NCBI GenBank assembly: GCA_030619985.1
Contig: JAUXAI010000040.1
Span: forward strand, 1-11,587
Source: a bacterium
GTDB lineage: Bacteria > UBP18 > UBA7526
Length of the DNA: 11,587 nucleotides
Reading direction: 5' to 3'
The notes under the pieces were generated by a model. The model ran no database searches, was not told where the DNA came from, and saw nothing but the letters and a program-made list of their open reading frames with translations. The position numbers and the translations under genes are program-made. Shown one piece after another: positions 1 through 11,539 of this stretch (positions within the stretch are counted from its first letter, which is position 1; each line of letters opens with the position of its first letter).

Positions 1-1621
1 CATCAACATCCAGTCCAGTAGCATACTTTATTCCGGGAGTCAGAAGATCCCAGTAGATGGCGGGAGGAAATAATGTTCCGAACTTACAGATCCCCGATGA
101 GTCAATGACGGCGCAGAACTCCTCCCCATCCTTCACCACAAAGGGCTTATACTTTGTCTGAATGCCGTCTATTATCTCGGGCATCTTATCTTTTCCATAC
201 CTCTTAATGGCTGCTCCGGCATAGCCGGTCTCATCGATGGTGGGAAAACCTTTCAGATGGTCTGCTCCTCTATTAGAGGTTGCATGGGCTAATCCCATGG
301 ACTGCTGGCTCCTTCCATCCTGGGCCGGAATCTCCATTCCCTTGATATGCATGGCATAATATTCCGAACCCTTACCAGTCTTCTCTGATGCCCTCTTACA
401 ACCTTCTGCTAATAGACCACCAAATCCCTCTCTTTTAGCAATCTTCTCCAATAGGGTAATTATGGAATGATAATTCCCCCAGGAAAGGTCCAGGCCATCC
501 GTATTCTCTTTGGTCAGTATTCCTTTCTCATAACATTCCATAGCCCAGGAAATAGCCCCTCCCGCAGAGATGGTATCCATTCCCATGCTATCGCAGATGA
601 CATTCATCTTTATAATAGAAGGTAGGTTGCTATTGCCGCACTTTGCTCCCAGGGCACACAATGTCTCGTACTCTAAGGAAGAGGTCACCGTCCCCTTATA
701 CTCTCCTTCCCTCACCTCCATCACCTTATCACAGGCAATGGGACAGCGATAGCAGGCCAGATGTCTTACAAAATGCTTCTCATCTAAAGCCTCGCCACTT
801 ATCTTATCCGCATGCTCGAAGTATCCGGCCTGTAAGTTTCTTGTAGGAAATCTTCCCACCTCATTTACAACATTGACCAGCCCTGCCGTCCCATACTTAT
901 GCTCTCCCGCAGTAAACTCATTCTCCCTTATGGCCTTCCTTGCCAGAGAAGCAGCCTTTTTGAATTCCTCTGGGTTATCTACCGAAACTTGTTTCGTTCC
1001 TCTCACTGCAATGGCTTTCAAGTTTTTAGAACCCATTACCGCACCCATCCCTGCTCGAGCAAGAGCTCGATTTTCAGTGACTACGATGCAGGCAAATCTG
1101 ACCAGGTTCTCTCCTGCCGGGCCGATAGAGGCCACCTTAATCTTCTCATCTTTCAATTCTTCCCTGATCATGTTCTGGGTAGCAGGAGTATCCTTCCCCC
1201 AGAGATGTTTGGCATCCCTTAGTTCAATCTTGTCGTCTTTAATCCATAAATAGACCGGCCTCTTTGCCTTTCCTTGAAAGACGATCATATCGTAGCCCGC
1301 AAAGCGCAGTTCTGGGGTAAAGAACCCACCAGCATTAGCATCGCCATATATTCCGGTTAGAGGGGACTTGCTGATTACTTCTAAATGACCAGAACAGGGC
1401 CAGAGGGTTCCGGTCAAGGCGCCAGTAGCGAAGACGAGCCTATTCTCTGGGTCTAGGGCGTCAACCTCTGGAGGAACCTCATCCCAGAGAATCTTTGTCC
1501 CGAAGCCATTTCCTCCCAAATAGTTCTCAATGAGATCATCTGGCAGGTCCAGAACCTTAACTTCTTCCTTCGTCAAATCAACCCTGATATACTTTCCATT
1601 ATATCCTTTATACTTTGCCAT
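1..1621 (-). CDS. aldehyde:ferredoxin oxidoreductase, tungsten/molybdopterin type (3' end beyond window)
   Basis: The reading frame is open from the ATG at 1621 to the window edge, giving 540 residues with no stop. It has the family layout: N-terminal GYNGKYIRVDLT (6-17), the cofactor-binding stretch with GDANAGGFF (93-101) and GMGAVMGSKNLKA (191-203), then the [4Fe-4S] cysteines C290, C293 and C297 (CYRCPIAC) and a distant fourth cysteine at C512 (SSGICKF). This spacing matches the family pattern CxxCxxxC...C. Family members run to about 600-620 residues, so roughly 60-110 C-terminal residues are missing. The enzyme is cytoplasmic and oxidises an aldehyde to a carboxylate while reducing ferredoxin, using a bis-pterin tungsten (or molybdenum) cofactor. 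The substrate cannot be read from the sequence. The start is supported by GGAGG six bases upstream. A separate -10 box lies in the 86-bp gap behind allG, so it may be transcribed alone or with that operon. Confidence 0.93.
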   Translation of the reverse strand, partial: MAKYKGYNGKYIRVDLTKEEVKVLDLPDDLIENYLGGNGFGTKILWDEVPPEVDALDPENRLVFATGALTGTLWPCSGHLEVISKSPLTGIYGDANAGGFFTPELRFAGYDMIVFQGKAKRPVYLWIKDDKIELRDAKHLWGKDTPATQNMIREELKDEKIKVASIGPAGENLVRFACIVVTENRALARAGMGAVMGSKNLKAIAVRGTKQVSVDNPEEFKKAASLARKAIRENEFTAGEHKYGTAGLVNVVNEVGRFPTRNLQAGYFEHADKISGEALDEKHFVRHLACYRCPIACDKVMEVREGEYKGTVTSSLEYETLCALGAKCGNSNLPSIIKMNVICDSMGMDTISAGGAISWAMECYEKGILTKENTDGLDLSWGNYHSIITLLEKIAKREGFGGLLAEGCKRASEKTGKGSEYYAMHIKGMEIPAQDGRSQQSMGLAHATSNRGADHLKGFPTIDETGYAGAAIKRYGKDKMPEIIDGIQTKYKPFVVKDGEEFCAVIDSSGICKFGTLFPPAIYWDLLTPGIKYATGLDVD

Positions 1622-1707: not shown

Positions 1708-3108
1708 TTATTGCGGTCTTCCAATCTTCGAAGATGCGAAGGTAGTAAGAGCTTCTTCGAAGATGCTCATGGGGGCGCGCAGGATGCCGGCTCCTATCTG
1801 GCCGATGCCCGGTTTTTTGTGGGCAATGCCAGTATTGATGAATGGAGTAATTCCGGTCTCGACTATTTTTCTAATGTCAATACCAATAGGGGTTCCTATA
1901 AAATCAAGGGAAGGAATTTTATAAGTATCGTGCTTGGCTACAACAATTTCATACATCTCTTTGGTATATCTTATGGCGTCCTGGGGATTTCCCCCGATGA
2001 ACTGAACGATGGCCGGGGCAGAGGCCATAGCAAATCCACCAATGCCTGCGGTCTCTGAGATAGTAGAATCTCCTAAGTCAGGATTGGCATCCTTTTCACT
2101 ATATCCCGCAAAATATAATCCCTTGGGCATTCCGGCTGGGGCAGTAAACCATCTCTTTCCTAATCCGGCCACCCTTATTCCGATCTCTGTCCCATTTCTT
2201 GCCATGGCACTCACTAAGGAACTATTTTTAAAACTAAGGATAGTGTCTGCAGTTGCCTTGCAGGCCGCCATGGAGATATTTAAGAAGAAATGAACATTTC
2301 CCGAAACAAATTCAATTATTTCTCCTATTGTCTTTTTATTCAAATCGGTCTTTAGGAGATGAGGGATAATCTCCTTTATAAATAACGAGGTTGCAGCCAC
2401 ATTTCTATTATGGCACTCATCCCCCATCTGCAGTGCCTGGGCAATCAGGTTCTTGATGTTTATTCCCCCGGATATTTTTACCGCTTTCTTCAAGCCCGGA
2501 GCGAGGACCTTCTCCATCCACTTAAGCCTCTCGATTACCTCTTCACTATAGGCCCCAAACCTCAACACCTTTCCCAATCCCTCATTCAAGGTGCAATAGG
2601 CATAATTCCCAAACTTCTCGTTCTTGACTACAAAGACATACATAGAGGCCGAGATAATGCCGGCCATAGGGCCTACCGCATTATGATGGTGGCAAGGAGA
2701 AAATTTTATTTTCCCAGATGCCGCTAATTTTTTCGCCTCTTCGGGGTTTCTTGCCAATCCCTCATAGATCAGAGCGCCCATTATGGCTCCCTTTATTGGC
2801 CCACACATCCTCTTCCATTCTACAGGAGGCCCGGCATGAAGGATGGTCCTCTTGGTCATTCCAGGAATGACATCCTTGGTCTGTTCAATATCTACCAGTA
2901 ATGGCTGAGAGTCGATCATCCTCTTAACCGCTTCCCTATTTGCCCTATTGATGGCTCGATTATCGAGTTTAGCGAGCATTCTCGCTCCAGGAACAGGCGG
3001 TCTCCAATCAACGTGCAAGACCTCTACTCCTTGTTCCTTTAAGGATTCGTGAAAGGACTCCAGCCCCAGATCAATAACCTTTAATCTTTTACCAAATAAT
3101 CCAGTCAT
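1708..3108 (-). CDS. allG: DUF1116 / YlbE family protein, AllG-like component of oxamate carbamoyltransferase
   Basis: This 466-residue protein belongs to the DUF1116 (YlbE) family, about 420-470 residues long. In allantoin-degrading bacteria it forms oxamate carbamoyltransferase together with AllF and AllH, converting oxalurate and phosphate to oxamate and carbamoyl phosphate. Visible conserved blocks are HAGPP (91-95), PCHHHNAVGPMAG (138-150), MGDECHNRN (228-236), MARNGTEIG (302-310), GDSTISETAGIGGFA (346-360) and NTGIAHKKPGIGQIGAG (425-441). There is no signal peptide and no convincing membrane segment. The ATG at 3108 follows the stop of the upstream gene by four bases with only a weak ribosome site, so translation is probably coupled. 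It is separated from allF by a phosphoribosyltransferase-like gene and a repeat-filled gap. Family assignment is firm. The oxalurate activity is inferred from homologs and from the allF/allH neighbours, and the true substrate could be another carbamoyl compound. Confidence 0.88.
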   Translation of the reverse strand: MTGLFGKRLKVIDLGLESFHESLKEQGVEVLHVDWRPPVPGARMLAKLDNRAINRANREAVKRMIDSQPLLVDIEQTKDVIPGMTKRTILHAGPPVEWKRMCGPIKGAIMGALIYEGLARNPEEAKKLAASGKIKFSPCHHHNAVGPMAGIISASMYVFVVKNEKFGNYAYCTLNEGLGKVLRFGAYSEEVIERLKWMEKVLAPGLKKAVKISGGINIKNLIAQALQMGDECHNRNVAATSLFIKEIIPHLLKTDLNKKTIGEIIEFVSGNVHFFLNISMAACKATADTILSFKNSSLVSAMARNGTEIGIRVAGLGKRWFTAPAGMPKGLYFAGYSEKDANPDLGDSTISETAGIGGFAMASAPAIVQFIGGNPQDAIRYTKEMYEIVVAKHDTYKIPSLDFIGTPIGIDIRKIVETGITPFINTGIAHKKPGIGQIGAGILRAPMSIFEEALTTFASSKIGRPQ

Positions 3109-3112
3109 TTTT

Positions 3113-4195
3113 TCACTTCATTAATTTCTCTATTTCCTTTATTCTCTGAGTACAGAATTTTTTGAGAGAATCTTTCTTCTTGGCTTCTCTTATTCTCTTT
3201 GGAATCCATCTTTTTCTATATGCCTGGTAAAGGTTCTTAATTAATCTTGAATCCATATTCTTCCAGGTTCTTTCCTTTGCTTCTCTCAGTTTCTCAAATG
3301 ATCTATATTCCCTCTCCGGCCACCTCTCCTTATATGCTTCATAGAGGGTCACTCCAGTATTTGACAATTTCTTCCAATAGTCGATGACATCTTCTAAGTG
3401 AGTAAGGCATTCAAAGGAGCGGGAGCCCACATCGTAAATGGTGCATCTCTCTAAGGGATAGGATATTCTCTCATACTGGAATAGTTCGAACTCCGGGGAG
3501 AGGAGAGCGGGATATCTGATGAGGTCTGTTCCCGGAAGGCAGATTCTAAAATCCTTCTTCTTCTCTGGAAGACCGAACCTTCCTTCTAAGTAATAGAGAT
3601 AGGTATTCTGATAGTCGAATGATTTCCTGAAGAGTCTATCGAATTTTTCCAAGATCTTTTCCGCCTTGTAGCAGCCGATGGTGAAGACGATGAAGTTCCT
3701 GATATTCTTCTTTTCTTCCAAACATCTTCTATAGAGTATTCCCAATCCATTCTCTATGGTGGTTCCGGTAGCGATGACATCCCCCAAGAAGATATTAGCG
3801 TCTTGAGGAATGGAGAACTTTCGATACTGGTCTAACTTTATGGACCATTTTCCTCTTTTCTTATATCTCTGGGAGGTGATAAAGGAGGAGAAGTGCCTAT
3901 TGAAGCCATAGACCTTATGAAGGAGGAAGGGTAGGCCGAAGTTAAGCCCCCCTCTCAAGAAGTGCAAGACAGAGACACTTTTATCATCAAAACGATTAAA
4001 GGGAAGGTTCTTTAAAATATTCTTCATTCCTTCCTGAAGGGTGTTTATATATTCGAAGCCCATAATCTCCGGGATGTTGCATATTCGGCGTGTCTGGGGA
4101 GTGGAAATAATATATCTCTTTATTCCCTTCTCATCCGGTCCTATCTTATAAAGAGAAAAGTTCTTCTTCCTCACCTTCTTGATTAAGTAGTCCAT
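3113..4195 (-). CDS. phosphoribosyltransferase-fold protein with a long basic C-terminal extension, substrate unknown
   Basis: The 360-residue protein has one clear signature, LGDVIATGTTIEN at 137-149, with a hydrophobic strand before it. This is the PRPP-binding motif of type I phosphoribosyltransferases. FLRGGLNFG (79-87) resembles the RGG loop seen early in such enzymes, and ITSQRYKKRGKW (106-117) could be the flexible flap. The PRTase core would therefore cover about 50-210. Residues about 230-360 are an extra region rich in Arg, Lys, Glu, Trp and Tyr, helical and very basic, with no fold I recognise; typical stand-alone base salvage enzymes are only 170-240 residues. The start is supported by GGGGAGGAG five bases before the ATG. 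The gene sits between allF and allG and nearly abuts allG. The acceptor base or other substrate is unknown; membership of the fold is likely, catalytic activity less certain. Confidence 0.68.
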   Translation of the reverse strand: MDYLIKKVRKKNFSLYKIGPDEKGIKRYIISTPQTRRICNIPEIMGFEYINTLQEGMKNILKNLPFNRFDDKSVSVLHFLRGGLNFGLPFLLHKVYGFNRHFSSFITSQRYKKRGKWSIKLDQYRKFSIPQDANIFLGDVIATGTTIENGLGILYRRCLEEKKNIRNFIVFTIGCYKAEKILEKFDRLFRKSFDYQNTYLYYLEGRFGLPEKKKDFRICLPGTDLIRYPALLSPEFELFQYERISYPLERCTIYDVGSRSFECLTHLEDVIDYWKKLSNTGVTLYEAYKERWPEREYRSFEKLREAKERTWKNMDSRLIKNLYQAYRKRWIPKRIREAKKKDSLKKFCTQRIKEIEKLMK

Positions 4196-4215
4196 ATCTC
4201 CTCCCCTTAATCACA

Positions 4216-4258
4216 GATTATAGAATGCGCTTCGCTGGCATTCTAGAGAGCATAAATA
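4216..4258. repeat. interspersed 43-bp hairpin repeat, copy 1
   Basis: This segment matches 11540-11582 at 40 of 43 positions. It contains an 8-bp inverted repeat, TAGAATGC (4221-4228) and GCATTCTA (4238-4245), around a 9-base loop GCTTCGCTG. Two of the three differences between copies compensate each other within the stem. Both copies have the same orientation and lie just 5' of a gene on the minus strand. Confidence 0.85.
4217..4245 (-). promoter_or_regulatory. candidate promoter inside the hairpin repeat, upstream of the phosphoribosyltransferase-like gene
   Basis: On the minus strand the repeat ends in a perfect TATAAT (4217-4222). With a 17-bp spacer, TAGAAT (4240-4245) is a poor -35 match (3 of 6 to TTGACA). 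A start about seven bases downstream would leave a leader of roughly 15 bases that still contains the ribosome site before the ATG at 4195. The second repeat copy has TGTAAT at the same place (11541-11546). This is an inference from sequence only. Confidence 0.3.
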
Positions 4259-4476
4259 TTAAGCATTGACACAGATTATTTACAGATCAGCACAGATCAC
4301 AGATCCGGATCATTGATCTTGGATGCTTGATCTTTGTTCTTGATAGCCCGATCGCCTGATAGCTCGATAGCTCGATAATTGCTCTGGTTACTGATTACCG
4401 CTGATTTCTGCTGATTTATAACCACTATCCACCTACGAGGTGGAAAAGGGTAATCTCCTTCACCCCTTTCCCATAC

Positions 4477-4527
4477 ATCTGTGATCATCTGCGGCTTAAT
4501 CTCTTAATCTGTGATCATCTGCGGCTT
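4477..4527. repeat. 21-bp direct repeat at 4477-4497 and 4507-4527, spanning the allF stop
   Basis: The two 21-bp copies are identical and 30 bp apart. The downstream copy (4507-4527) encodes the last seven residues of AllF, KPQMITD, and directly precedes its stop codon. The other lies just after the stop. CACAGAT within the unit links it to the repeat family in the neighbouring gap. Confidence 0.9.
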
Positions 4528-6060
4528 GTCTCTTATGGCTACCAGGGCAGTGAACCTCGCTGCCTGAGCATTGGAAGGCATAACGATTACTCCCATCTTC
4601 TCTAATTCTTCCTTCTGCCTCTTATAGTCCTGGGGATCGCCCTCTGTGCCACATAAAGAGGCCACTACTAAGACATTCCTTTCCTTTGCCTCCTTTATTG
4701 CTGGAGCCAGGGCATTCGCTGGATCAGGATGGGCACCATAACCCAAAACGATATCTAAAAGGATTACCGCTGTCTCAGGATCTTTTGCCTCCTGAATAAT
4801 CCTTTCATTCCTTAAAGTAAAGTCGATCATGGGATGGGGTCTTCCTCTGGTAAACTCATCGTCTCCTAAGTCAACTAAAGAGTTCTTTTGGCTCAAATTA
4901 CTATCCTTTAACTTCAGAGAGGGTTTTAGGGGGATATTGGAATAGATATCACCAATTAAATCCTTTAAGATGAGCATGGCCTCATCACATAGTGTTCCCC
5001 CAGAGAATAGTCCTCGAATATACTTTTGTCTGTCTTTTAGTTCTGACCATTCCTTCTTCGCTAAAGAGATTATCTTCTCTCTTTTCTCACTAAACGGCTG
5101 AGGTTTATACGCTTTTTTCTTACTCAGAGCGACTGCCTTATGGGCTGCTTCTTCTAAGGTAGAAGCAAAGTGTATTCTTTTAGTCTCTTCGCCTGGTTTG
5201 CTTCCTAAGAAATTTATGACAAAGGACTTCTTAGCCTTCTTTACCTCTTTTATTATTCTATCTGCTACTTCCTCTGCTGGTGGCTTGGAGATCAAAACGA
5301 TTATCTTGGTATCCAGATCATTCTCCAGGGCTTTAATTCCCTGAAGCATAGTAATCCCACCTATCTCCTTCGATAGGTCCCTTCCCCCAGTTCCTATCCC
5401 CTGGGAGATTCCCAAGCCCGCCTTATGGATTAGACAAGAAACTTCCTGTAGTCCCGTTCCCGCAGCAGCAACAATCCCGATATTCCCTCTTCTGACCACA
5501 TTGGCAAAGCCCAAGGCCACACCATTGATTATCGCTGTTCCGCAGTCTGGACCCATGACTAACTGGCCTTTCCTCTTAGCCATTCTTTTTAACTCTAACT
5601 CATCCCCTACGGAAACATTGTCACTGAAGATGAAGAGGTTTAAGCCCCTTTCTAAGGCTTTTTCTGCTTCCCATCTCACATACCTTCCCGGAATAGAGAT
5701 ATGGACCAGATTAGCATCTGGAGATTGGTCAAGGGCAGAACTTAGGCTCTTAGGTAAAATTGCCTCACCTTCTTCTTTTCTAACTCTTTTCTCCACCAAT
5801 AATTTTTCAATCTCCTCCAACGTCTTTTCAATAGCCCTCTTGTCCCGGGCAGAAATAGCAATTAAGAGGTCATTGGACTTTGCTTCTTCTCCCTCTTTAG
5901 TTAAAAGATTTACCTCTGCCAATAGTTTCTTATTCTCTGGAGTCCCCATTAGGCAGGATACTTCCTCTATACCCTCTAAGGATTTTACTTTATTAGCGAT
6001 AGACATGAGAAAAACAGAATCCTGATAGGTATCTTTCTTAACAATATTCTTTAGAATCAT
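4504..6060 (-). CDS. allF: FdrA family protein, AllF-like component of oxamate carbamoyltransferase
   Basis: This 518-residue protein is an FdrA family member (E. coli FdrA is about 555 residues), built on the succinyl-CoA synthetase alpha/beta fold. Seen are GPDCGTA (170-176), the glycine-rich nucleotide/CoA-like loop GNIGIVAAAGTGLQEV (192-207), GIGTGGRDL (221-229), LFSGGTLCDEA (351-361), LGDDEFTRGRPHPMID (397-412), LGYGAHPDPA (439-448) and GTEGDP (471-476). Known work places FdrA/AllF with AllG and AllH in oxamate carbamoyltransferase; the family resembles CoA ligases but acts in carbamoyl transfer. The ATG at 6060 lies inside the last codons of allH, a 23-base overlap that implies coupled translation. 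The last seven residues before the stop come from a 21-bp repeat that occurs again just after it, so the C-terminal tip is probably not native. Family assignment is firm and the substrate is inferred. Confidence 0.9.
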   Translation of the reverse strand: MILKNIVKKDTYQDSVFLMSIANKVKSLEGIEEVSCLMGTPENKKLLAEVNLLTKEGEEAKSNDLLIAISARDKRAIEKTLEEIEKLLVEKRVRKEEGEAILPKSLSSALDQSPDANLVHISIPGRYVRWEAEKALERGLNLFIFSDNVSVGDELELKRMAKRKGQLVMGPDCGTAIINGVALGFANVVRRGNIGIVAAAGTGLQEVSCLIHKAGLGISQGIGTGGRDLSKEIGGITMLQGIKALENDLDTKIIVLISKPPAEEVADRIIKEVKKAKKSFVINFLGSKPGEETKRIHFASTLEEAAHKAVALSKKKAYKPQPFSEKREKIISLAKKEWSELKDRQKYIRGLFSGGTLCDEAMLILKDLIGDIYSNIPLKPSLKLKDSNLSQKNSLVDLGDDEFTRGRPHPMIDFTLRNERIIQEAKDPETAVILLDIVLGYGAHPDPANALAPAIKEAKERNVLVVASLCGTEGDPQDYKRQKEELEKMGVIVMPSNAQAARFTALVAIRDKPQMITD

Positions 6061-6910
6061 TTTCCAGTTCTTTTACTCTTAAAGAAAGGCCTTCCAAAAC
6101 TCCAAGAAGGGTATCTCTTCCTGAAGTGGCGCCAAAGTTCAAACATCTTCTGGCCGCTTCCTCAACTCCTTCTCTATTTCCAGAAAAGATTGTTTCTATT
6201 AGATTCAGAATTGTTTCTGGAAATCTACCCTGACAGGCATATTCTAAAAACTTCTCACTCAGGAAAGTTGTCCTCTTTTTCTCTAATTCAATAACTTCCT
6301 TTATCCTTCTTACTAAATATCCCAACCTTAAATCATTTAAGAAGTGGAGAGAGGCAATGAAGCCCACTAAGAAATCGTCTCCGGAAGGGGTGAGTCCTTC
6401 TCCAAAGCCAATGAGCCTTTTAACATTTCTTAAAACCTTGGGAAGATTTCTTTCTTCAAGTGATTTAGTTAATTCTTGAATCCGAACTCTTAATTCTTGA
6501 GAAACGCTGTTTCTTTCTTTTTCGGTTGAAAAATCTTCTTGGAGAAATGAGCCAAACAAGTTGTCTCTTACTCGAGAACTTAATGTCTTCTCTTTTATCT
6601 CAATTTTAGACGACCATTTCTTCGCTCTTCCTAAAGAGATGAGGAAATTTCCGTTATCAATACTTATCTCCTGAGCAGTTCCTACTGTTTTCGCCCCCTT
6701 TTTTATCTTGAAAGAAATGAAATCTTCATCTTCGGGAAGTTTAAGGAGAATGCGATTGGGACCATTTAGTTTTTCAACTGCCACAATAGAGATAAGTTCA
6801 TTCTCTTCTGTTCTAATATTGAAGGCTTTAGAGAAGATACTGTGGACTTCTCCCCCAAATCTAGGGGGTAACTTGGTATCAAAAGAAAAGGCACTAAAAG
6901 TTCGTCTCAT
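6038..6910 (-). CDS. allH: DUF2877 / YlbF family protein, AllH-like component of oxamate carbamoyltransferase
   Basis: I place the start at the ATG at 6910, giving 290 residues (E. coli YlbF is about 270). The frame stays open back to an ATG at 7138, but that extra 76-residue stretch lies across the deaminase gene in another frame, is rich in Ser, Arg, Trp and Pro, and resembles no part of the family, so it is a shadow. Conserved blocks are LIGFGEGLTPSGDDFLVGF (166-184), FLSEKFLEYACQGRF (216-230) and FGATSGRDTLLG (259-270), all typical of DUF2877. The protein looks cytoplasmic. It is the third component of oxamate carbamoyltransferase in characterised relatives. AGGG lies six bases before the chosen start. 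The gene overlaps the deaminase by 17 bases upstream and allF by 23 bases downstream, so the three are a tight translational unit. Family is clear; the start is the less certain part. Confidence 0.86.
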   Translation of the reverse strand: MRRTFSAFSFDTKLPPRFGGEVHSIFSKAFNIRTEENELISIVAVEKLNGPNRILLKLPEDEDFISFKIKKGAKTVGTAQEISIDNGNFLISLGRAKKWSSKIEIKEKTLSSRVRDNLFGSFLQEDFSTEKERNSVSQELRVRIQELTKSLEERNLPKVLRNVKRLIGFGEGLTPSGDDFLVGFIASLHFLNDLRLGYLVRRIKEVIELEKKRTTFLSEKFLEYACQGRFPETILNLIETIFSGNREGVEEAARRCLNFGATSGRDTLLGVLEGLSLRVKELENDSKEYC

Positions 6911-7412
6911 CCTGAGCCCTATATTTCCCGTGATATTTTGCCTTCCCAACCGTTCTCTGAAAGATGAACTGGCAGATGGGCGTCCCAGGATAGATGGCCA
7001 AGGGCATAGGACTAAAATTTGAGATCTCCAGGACCTGGTGGTTGGCGATCCCAGGATGCATGAAACTGGCTGAGATGTGGACCAGAAGACCGAACCGAGC
7101 GAACCTACTCCTTCCCTCAAGCCAACCACAGATATCACTGGGCAAGGTGATCTTCTCTTTGGTGATCCCCAGTATCGTCTCTCCCGGCATTAAGACAAAG
7201 TATTTCTTCACTTTTACTACCTCAGTTACCTGCTCATGGGAGGTCCTTTCTGAGACATGGATGACATTGTGCACCTTCTTGAAGACCCGAAACTCATTCC
7301 CCAGATGAAGGTCCACAGAGCCCGGCCCCACCTTCGACTCATCAAAGGGCTCAATCTTTATTCTTCCCTTCCTAATCTCCTTCAGAATCTCCCCTCTGGT
7401 CAGAATACTCAT
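6894..7412 (-). CDS. dcd: dCTP deaminase (dUTPase-like fold)
   Basis: The 172-residue protein matches the dCTP deaminase / dUTPase superfamily: GPGSVDLHLG (29-38), LEGRSRFARFGLLVH (98-112), HPGIANHQVLEISN (119-132) with E129 at the position of the catalytic glutamate (E138 in E. coli), and YPGTPICQFIF (141-151). The family enzyme converts dCTP to dUTP, or to dUMP in bifunctional forms. The residue before PG is His rather than the Asp found in E. coli Dcd; I believe other branches of the family vary here too. The C-terminal lid, KYHGKYRAQDET (159-170), is recognisable but stops two residues later, without the usual Ser-Arg ending. The start at 7412 is supported by GGGGAGGT a few bases upstream. 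The gene overlaps allH by 17 bases, so it is co-transcribed with the carbamoyltransferase genes, an unusual partnership. Deamination activity is inferred from the family. Confidence 0.88.
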   Translation of the reverse strand: MSILTRGEILKEIRKGRIKIEPFDESKVGPGSVDLHLGNEFRVFKKVHNVIHVSERTSHEQVTEVVKVKKYFVLMPGETILGITKEKITLPSDICGWLEGRSRFARFGLLVHISASFMHPGIANHQVLEISNFSPMPLAIYPGTPICQFIFQRTVGKAKYHGKYRAQDETNF

Positions 7413-10021: not shown

Positions 10022-10696
10022 TCATTTCACGGTAATTTTATCCCTCAATACCCCATAAATTTTAGGGCCAAACCCATGAATCTTGGTAATCTCCTCAATG
10101 CTTGAATAGGGGCGGTTAGCGATGATGGCTTCTGCTTTCTTTGGACCGATGTTGGGCAGAGTTTGAATCTCTTGGAGGGTAGCAGTGTTTATGTTTATTT
10201 TTGGGGCTACTTCTTCTTTTATCTTTCTTTTGAGTTTCCTTTCTTCTTTTTCTTTCATCTCACCATAGGCTAACTTTAACTCCTCTGTGGTATAGACATG
10301 CTCTGGCCCATGGGAGAGAAGCCTCTTTTTAAACTCCTGGGCATCGAACTTCTGGGAGACAACGATCTTGGAGCCATCCTTCATGGGTTGAGCGAGGTTC
10401 AGGATATCGAGAAGGGCATCCTCCTCTGGTCCACCAGCTGCCTTCACGGCATCAATGACTCTTGCTCCCTCTTTAAAGTGATAGACCCCGGGCTTATTCA
10501 CCGCTCCCGTAATGTGGATGATAATCCTCTTAGGGGCAACTTCTTCTTCAAGCGAGGTAATGCTTTCTGCGGTCAGGAGATGCCCTTTCTCCTTATTCTC
10601 CAGATACTTCCTAACAGAGGCCACAGCACCTCCCACCAAGATCACTCCTACAAGGAAAAGAATGACCAACTGCTCAGAACGGGATAGTTTAAACAC
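10022..10696 (-). CDS. comEA: ComEA-like competence protein (SLBB + helix-hairpin-helix), paralog 2
   Basis: The 224-residue protein has a single N-terminal membrane anchor (about 9-27), an SLBB domain with ITGAVNKPGVYHFKEGARV (62-80) and a C-terminal double helix-hairpin-helix with KININTATLQEIQTLPNIGP (166-185) and ITKIHGFGPKIY (203-214). This is the ComEA architecture: a membrane-anchored DNA receptor that hands incoming DNA to ComEC. It starts with GTG, preceded by AGGAG at a good distance, nine bases after the stop of the first comEA. It is a clear tandem duplicate of that gene. Between SLBB and HhH both carry an extra conserved stretch (here 117-145, FDAQEFKKRLL...LAYG) and a charged Lys/Glu linker. 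The second hairpin is slightly degenerate (ANRPYSSIEE instead of the longer version in paralog 1). comEC follows almost immediately. Confidence 0.9.
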   Translation of the reverse strand: MFKLSRSEQLVILFLVGVILVGGAVASVRKYLENKEKGHLLTAESITSLEEEVAPKRIIIHITGAVNKPGVYHFKEGARVIDAVKAAGGPEEDALLDILNLAQPMKDGSKIVVSQKFDAQEFKKRLLSHGPEHVYTTEELKLAYGEMKEKEERKLKRKIKEEVAPKININTATLQEIQTLPNIGPKKAEAIIANRPYSSIEEITKIHGFGPKIYGVLRDKITVK

Positions 10697-10705
10697 TCTT
10701 CTCTC

Positions 10706-11500
10706 CTAATCCACGGTAATCTTATCCTTCAGGTTCTCGTAGGTCTTCTGCCCGATGCCATGGATCTTCATGATATCAGAGGTCTCTTGGAAAGGGCCAT
10801 GTTCCTCCCTATATCTTATGAAGGCCTCTGCTTTCTTTGGTCCAATACCGGGCAAGGTCTGGAACTCTTCCTTCATTGCCGTATTGATATTTATTTTCTC
10901 TTCTTCACTTGGTTTGGGTTTTTCTTCCTCCTCTTTGGGTTTCTCTTCCTTCCTCCTCTCCTCTTCTTTGGGCCTGCCATAGGCCAGTATTAGCTCTTCT
11001 GTGGTATAGATATGTGCTGGACCATAAGAAAGAAGTCTTTTTCTGAAGGCTTGGGCATCAAACTTTCGGGAGATGACGATCTCTGAGCCATGCTCCAGGG
11101 GTTGGGCAAGCCTCATGATATTCAGGATGGCTCCCTTTCCTACCCCGGCCGCTTTTACCGCATCGACAACCCTTGCCCCTTCTTCAAACTGATAGACCCC
11201 GGGCCTCTTCACCGCTCCCGTGATGCGAATAGTAATTTCCTTTGGAGCGGGAGGCATTTCTGGGGTTGGCTCGGAAGGCGGCTTGGTAATGATCTCTGGC
11301 TCAGGGAGGATCTCAGGCTCAGGGATGGCTACTGGTTCCGGAATGACTTCCCGTCTCACCTCCCTTTCTGGAATAGGAGGGGGGAGGATTTCGGGAAGGG
11401 GGGTGAGGAGTATCTTCACCATATAGACAATGCTTCCCAGAGCTACGGCTCCTAGGAGAGAGAAGAAAACGACTCGTTCCAAATGAGAGAGTTTAAACAT
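10706..11500 (-). CDS. comEA: ComEA-like competence protein (SLBB + helix-hairpin-helix), paralog 1
   Basis: The start is set at the ATG at 11500, giving 264 residues. AAAGGAG lies five bases upstream, and the resulting MFKLS N-terminus matches the paralog. An in-frame ATG at 11527 would add nine residues read from repeat DNA. A membrane helix (about 9-30) is followed by a Pro/Glu-rich stalk (33-87), an SLBB domain with ITGAVKRPGVYQFEEGARV (93-111), the stretch shared with paralog 2 (147-175), a Glu/Lys/Pro linker (177-201) and a double helix-hairpin-helix with KININTAMKEEFQTLPGIGP (202-221) and IMKIHGIGQKTYENLKDKI (243-261). It would act as the membrane-tethered DNA-binding receptor of transformation. 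The long stalk, absent in paralog 2, could hold the DNA-binding domain further from the membrane; that is inference. It is the first gene of the comEA-comEA-comEC cluster in this window. Confidence 0.9.
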   Translation of the reverse strand: MFKLSHLERVVFFSLLGAVALGSIVYMVKILLTPLPEILPPPIPEREVRREVIPEPVAIPEPEILPEPEIITKPPSEPTPEMPPAPKEITIRITGAVKRPGVYQFEEGARVVDAVKAAGVGKGAILNIMRLAQPLEHGSEIVISRKFDAQAFRKRLLSYGPAHIYTTEELILAYGRPKEEERRKEEKPKEEEEKPKPSEEEKININTAMKEEFQTLPGIGPKKAEAFIRYREEHGPFQETSDIMKIHGIGQKTYENLKDKITVD

Positions 11501-11539
11501 ACTTCTCCTTTGAACACAGATACACACGGATAAGAAACG

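Follow-up and report, generated by a model that had tools for sequence, protein, structure and literature searches.

What does a carbamoyltransferase complex of allantoin degradation do where its genes lie among those for nucleotide enzymes? The question is raised by a stretch of 11,587 nucleotides (the window), contig C63 of the 1.25 Mb draft genome G000 (91 contigs, 83.65% complete), in which the genes for AllF, AllG and AllH are mixed with a dCTP deaminase gene (dcd) and a gene for a phosphoribosyltransferase-like protein (PRT). In allantoin degradation by E. coli, AllFGH acts as an oxamic transcarbamylase, and it has been assayed as such (PMC11326118). An earlier note on the window had proposed that the complex phosphorolyses a ureido product of nucleobase breakdown, yielding carbamoyl phosphate for ATP or for pyrimidine synthesis. 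The analysis described here indicates that the enzyme family is known, that its genomic setting is new and conserved, and that a new substrate can be predicted.

All genes of the row lie on the minus strand, in the order of two ComEA-like genes, ComEC, dcd, allH, allF, PRT, allG and a gene for an aldehyde:ferredoxin oxidoreductase (AOR) (Table 1). The coding sequences of dcd and allH overlap by 17 bp and those of allH and allF by 23 bp, where the allH start, read from the sequence, is the ATG at 6910; the gene order and overlaps reported earlier are therefore the same here. Only 4 bp lie between PRT and allG, and about 308 bp between allF and PRT. AllF, AllG and AllH are all intact and score above their family cut-offs (NF004760, PF06545 and PF11392), as does the dCTP deaminase, which confirms that the three components assigned to oxamate carbamoyltransferase are present. 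In addition, AllF matches the solved FdrA structure 3dmy at E 5.6e-81, and AllG matches 3clq at E 7.7e-136. Comparison with two relatives gave dN/dS values of 0.02-0.12 for Dcd, AllF, PRT and AllG (0.02-0.04 for Dcd alone), indicating that these four genes are under purifying selection. The AOR gene is truncated by the contig end and extends the row past the span of 1708-7412 covered by the earlier note, which was also correct that no carbamate kinase and no allantoin gene are found in the window. Other features of the window include a repeat-rich stretch of 308 bp that fills the gap between allF and PRT (4196-4503) and, ahead of ComEC, the ComEA-like genes as a tandem pair with SLBB and helix-hairpin-helix domains (10022-11527).

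Table 1. Genes of the conserved row in the window, with their coordinates and profile scores.
Gene	Product	Position	Strand	Profile matches
dcd	dCTP deaminase, 172 aa	6894..7412	(-)	TIGR02274 148.1 bits (cut-off 92.8); PF22769 160.7
allH	AllH (DUF2877), 290 aa	6038..6910	(-)	PF11392 96.6 bits (cut-off 25)
allF	AllF (FdrA-like), 518 aa	4504..6060	(-)	NF004760 (FdrA) 520.7 bits (cut-off 433)
PRT	PRT-like, 360 aa	3113..4195	(-)	PF24390 alone, 19.5 (below cut-off 27)
allG	AllG (DUF1116), 466 aa	1708..3108	(-)	PF06545 337 bits (cut-off 27)
AOR	Tungsten-type aldehyde:ferredoxin oxidoreductase	2..1621	(-)	PF02730 285 bits; PF01314 339.7

The window's phylum is represented in the search set by six species, with genomes 53-93% complete, every one of which has PRT. 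The full row comprises dcd, allH, allF, PRT, allG, AOR, and genes for cytosine deaminase (CodA), a cyclase and uridine phosphorylase, and it was recovered on a single contig in G003 (L157) and in G004 (L158, on the same contig as L015), while its genes are spread over split contigs in G001 (L014 and L160) and G005 (L159 and L161). In the fragmentary draft G000 the cyclase was not found, and the fragmentary draft G002 has a distant cyclase only. Uridine phosphorylase scores above its NCBIfam cut-off (292.9-294.9 against 280.3) and cytosine deaminase slightly below its own (421-432 against 438), and the row's cyclase matches PF04199 at 122 bits. Seed models for allB, allC, allD and allE, which do match the allantoin clusters L044 and L047, found none of these genes in the window or in the sister loci L157-L161. 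Several local irregularities were seen in the sister genomes: AllG is in two frames in G001 (L014:5759-7143); the first 48 AllG codons are set apart in G004 by about 1.3 kb with a 337-aa open frame (L015:8581-11236); and a small gene, possibly of the four-helix S23 type as named by eye, directly precedes PRT in G003 (L157:7476-7844) and G002, at the place where the window shows just its repeat-rich gap.

Parts of the same row recur in a second phylum, reached via L006, where PRT adjoins AllG in six genomes. Where the contigs suffice, the order there is allH-allF-PRT-allG with genes overlapping or abutting, followed in L150 by xanthine dehydrogenase (XDH)-type hydroxylase genes. In three more genomes of that phylum a divergent PRT lies apart from allG; one copy adjoins dcd (G325, L154) and another lies near probable nrdD, thyX and purE genes, these three named by eye (G328, L156), so that PRT appears to track pyrimidine and dNTP genes. 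An arrangement unique to G000 is thereby rejected: the run for which a search of other genomes had been proposed is kept across the window's phylum and partly in the second.

The PRT protein itself has few handles in sequence. No PF14681 match appeared in a Pfam scan up to E 1, so that sequence does not place PRT in the uracil phosphoribosyltransferase (UPRT) family; a search for solved relatives by sequence found none, and hhalign against the upp product of G005, the only one of the genomes with a canonical upp, was not significant. An AlphaFold2 model built from 13 sequences reached pLDDT 75.3 and pTM 0.77 (a model from 7 sequences was poor, at pLDDT 52.7). In VIA-align, its 14 best structural matches are all UPRTs, with Z scores of 10.3-12.8 over about residues 24-264 of the model, compared with Z of 9.4 or less for other phosphoribosyltransferases (adenine, orotate); a helical extension follows at the C-terminus. 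These matches of the model make a uracil-type phosphoribosyltransferase plausible. By eye, and without confirmation by a program, LRGGL, ATGTT and YDVGSRSF of PRT can be set beside LRAGI, ATGGS and GDAGDRLF of UPRTs.

In order to place AllFGH in a wider context, AllG neighbourhoods of other phyla were compared. AllG was found in 57 of the 301 Chloroflexota genomes drawn, and 37 neighbourhoods, each 19 kb or less, were set against 20 control stretches taken from those genomes. AllF is present in 36 of the 37, the XDH Mo subunit in 21, the cyclase in 18 and a carbamate kinase in 9, and every one of the 18 cyclase-bearing neighbourhoods also has the XDH Mo subunit. The enrichment over controls (18/37 against 0/20 for the cyclase, Fisher p 6e-5; 21/37 against 1/20 for the XDH Mo subunit, Fisher p 8e-5) carries optimistic p-values, because related species were counted apart and the loci are not independent. 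None of the labelled partners occurs at 9 of the 37 loci, and AllFG therefore has other contexts too. L005, labelled Sumerlaeota, shows the row allH-allF-allG-cytosine deaminase-cyclase-uridine phosphorylase, and L011 (Anaerolineaceae) contains XDH subunits, a cytosine-deaminase-like gene, a (methyl)malonyl-CoA-decarboxylase-type Na+ pump, allF, allG, cyclase and allH. Genes for such Na+ pumps adjoin allF in L009-L011, and four loci have class III CoA transferases; with malonate-type decarboxylases and CoA transferases as neighbours, a C3 dicarboxylic acid is a better fit than oxamate as the product.

Enterobacteria and enterococci show further settings. On an IncR plasmid (L040), allFGH comes after genes for a nucleobase symporter and a cyanuric acid hydrolase (AtzD; 580 bits against 360), and on an E. 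coli IncF plasmid (L046) it is flanked by genes for a BiuH-like hydrolase and a cytosine permease; with their carbamate kinase, these two enterobacterial plasmid loci are apparently modules for ureide use. In the E. coli yah cluster, allFGH is followed by carbamate kinase and an amidohydrolase, and in Enterococcus gilvus it lies inside an allantoin cluster. A quick tree of AllG sets an allantoin clade apart from a biuret/cyanurate group and from large cyclase/XDH groups; the E. coli-type and Enterococcus allantoin sequences form their own 4-row clade (98 in this quick tree), and the window's AllG, outside it, groups with L005 and the PRT-associated sequences (13 rows, 99). As the contexts and the AllG groups differ, more than one acyl ureide seems to be served by the AllFGH family. 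The N-terminal stretch of the window's AllG (2956-3090, about 45 residues) matches residues 509-553, the C-terminal end, of AllF of the E. coli type, and in Enterococcus faecalis (L043) AllF and AllG are fused in one 1003-aa protein, which indicates that the border between the two genes has moved within the complex.

On these data an ordinary allantoin cluster is rejected, since the partners in the sister rows and in Chloroflexota are cyclase, pyrimidine and hydroxylase genes, the row has no allantoin genes and its AllG belongs to another clade. The part of the earlier proposal that placed the complex in nucleobase rather than allantoin metabolism is thus borne out by the CodA, cyclase and uridine phosphorylase genes downstream in the sister genomes; the substrate of AllFGH stands as a prediction.

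The explanation that we prefer, and to which as a whole we give an even chance, is that the window contains the upstream part of a nine-gene operon for oxidative pyrimidine breakdown in which AllFGH cleaves ureidomalonate. Dcd, cytosine deaminase and uridine phosphorylase would supply uracil, part of which the UPRT-fold PRT would send back to UMP. An oxidoreductase (AOR here, an XDH-type hydroxylase in other phyla) would convert uracil to barbiturate, the cyclase-family amidohydrolase would open barbiturate to ureidomalonate, and AllF-AllG-AllH would convert ureidomalonate and phosphate to malonamate and carbamoyl phosphate, ureidomalonate being an acyl ureide and the next chemical homologue of oxalurate. 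The carbamoyl phosphate would then pass to carbamate kinase, for ATP, or to ornithine carbamoyltransferase.

Ring oxidation in the window's phylum is the weakest step of this scheme. No XDH Mo subunit was found in any of the six genomes, and AOR stands where L150 has that subunit; AORs are known as enzymes of aldehydes, and the full-length orthologue in G003 (L157) is close to classical AOR (E 2.5e-154 against 1aor). To our knowledge, hydroxylation of the uracil ring by an AOR would be new. The cyclase is strongly conserved in sequence between phyla, with the motif HxGTHxDGxxHF, and among solved structures it is closest to kynurenine formamidases rather than to barbiturases. The AtzD-type seed model gave no match to an AtzD/Bar-family barbiturase (PF09663) in the sister loci, which carry the PF04199 cyclase instead. 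A 241-aa protein with no Pfam match is often found near the cyclase (L011:12343-13068, with homologues in L081, L093, L099 and L160).

As for the fate of carbamoyl phosphate, the statement that the genome lacks a carbamate kinase was considered and rejected: a PF00696 search gave only aspartokinase, glutamate 5-kinase and acetylglutamate kinase, and TIGR00746 then found a divergent homologue on contig C86 of G000 (249.7 bits against a cut-off of 358). The kinase that the earlier note had suggested looking for is accordingly absent from the window and the row and present elsewhere in the genome. It lies behind SsnA, a YgeY-type hydrolase and two ornithine carbamoyltransferase (OTCase)-family genes in a cluster (L117:192-10579) where a PLP enzyme occupies the YgeX position and which also has threonine synthase and a DgcN-like gene; judged by gene content, this is probably an anaerobic purine/urate cluster. 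The carB model scored above its cut-off in all 14 control genomes and in none of the six of the window's phylum; were carB a gene of this phylum, incompleteness alone would hide it in all six drafts with a chance of about 4e-5, calculated from the completeness values and assuming independence. No PF02729 match in the six genomes scores as aspartate carbamoyltransferase (a few short fragments are unclassified); the full-length matches inspected are argF, which lies in a run with arginine-synthesis genes, and the two transcarbamylases of the C86 cluster. Pyrimidine synthesis, one of the two uses proposed earlier, is consequently an unlikely sink, since neither carbamoyl-phosphate synthase nor a pyrB-type gene was found and ornithine carbamoyltransferase was. 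With argF and the C86 kinase both present, carbamoyl phosphate made by AllFGH could feed either.

In an alternative reading the operon and its pyrimidine context are unchanged, but the ureide cleaved by AllFGH would be carbamoyl-beta-alanine (ureidopropionate), formed when uracil is broken down reductively, and AOR would work on an aldehyde further along the pathway, such as malonate semialdehyde. The classical sequence of AOR and the missing XDH-type hydroxylase in the window's phylum favor this, as does the ability of YgeW to phosphorolyse a different, non-acyl ureide in the reductive urate pathway (PMC12507026). We nevertheless consider it unlikely, as the row itself holds no dihydropyrimidine dehydrogenase or dihydropyrimidinase gene and the XDH hydroxylase and cyclase partners of AllFG in other phyla suggest oxidation of the ring.

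It is quite improbable, in our estimation, that AllFGH keeps the activity of the E. coli enzyme and that pyrimidine genes share its operon for nitrogen control only: although the three subunits are clearly homologous to the assayed enzyme (PMC11326118), the sister rows lack allantoin genes, AllG falls outside the allantoin clade, and cyclase and hydroxylase partners recur instead. There is similarly little probability that dcd and PRT are chance neighbours serving nucleotide pools, leaving a unit of allHFG with AOR, cytosine deaminase, cyclase and uridine phosphorylase. Both genes are missing at most AllFG loci elsewhere, and dcd, adjoining ComEC, could be part of an upstream unit, but in two phyla PRT is placed between allF and allG, the genes of the second phylum even overlapping, and the divergent PRT copies of G325 and G328 keep company with pyrimidine and dNTP genes.

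Returning to ureidomalonate cleavage, a broader claim, which we advance tentatively and with more doubt than belief, is that the row represents an undescribed anaerobic oxidative pyrimidine pathway of several phyla in which AllFGH types are ureidomalonate carbamoyltransferases and uracil breakdown thus yields carbamoyl phosphate directly. In the window's phylum this might also supply carbamoyl phosphate to arginine synthesis, replacing the carbamoyl-phosphate synthase that was not found, and AOR might be the ring oxidase. No earlier description of AllFGH or barbiturate in anaerobic pyrimidine breakdown was found in the open-licence PMC literature. If true, a large family named after oxamate would be misnamed for many members in Chloroflexota and several candidate phyla, and oxidative pyrimidine breakdown could give ATP or carbamoyl phosphate beyond ammonia and CO2. 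The presence of AllFGH in a conserved row with pyrimidine genes suggests that uncultured bacteria of the window's phylum save part of the energy of uracil-type bases as carbamoyl phosphate, and their apparent lack of carbamoyl-phosphate synthase makes its origin directly testable.

The Rhodococcus-type oxidative pyrimidine pathway proceeds by ring oxidation, ring opening and cleavage of ureidomalonate, the last by hydrolysis with ureidomalonase. The steps predicted here follow the same order, whereas AOR or XDH and a PF04199 cyclase replace the known barbiturase family, and the predicted phosphorolysis, in place of hydrolysis, would keep the energy as carbamoyl phosphate. We know of AllFGH assays with oxalurate or oxamate in E. 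coli only. The E. coli complex has the same AllF, AllG and AllH subunits, and both are presumed to split an acyl ureide with phosphate so that carbamoyl phosphate is formed. The row described here differs in that its operon has pyrimidine genes but neither allantoin genes nor a kinase, in that its AllG belongs to another clade, and in that a segment which is C-terminal in E. coli AllF is N-terminal in AllG. Anaerobes that degrade urate reductively use YgeW and carbamate kinase to turn a ureide and phosphate into carbamoyl phosphate for ATP (PMC12507026). That pathway likewise leads from a nucleobase ureide to carbamoyl phosphate, and the C86 cluster of G000 resembles its clusters (PMC12507026), but YgeW has an OTCase fold, with no relation to AllFGH, and for the present row a substrate derived from pyrimidines is predicted. 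Finally, nitrifiers have allFGHK clusters with biuret/triuret genes that carry allK and biuH (PMC12625717); there, as here, AllFGH lies outside an allantoin operon and is tied to other ureides, with cyclase, cytosine deaminase and uridine phosphorylase as the partners in the present row in place of allK and biuH.
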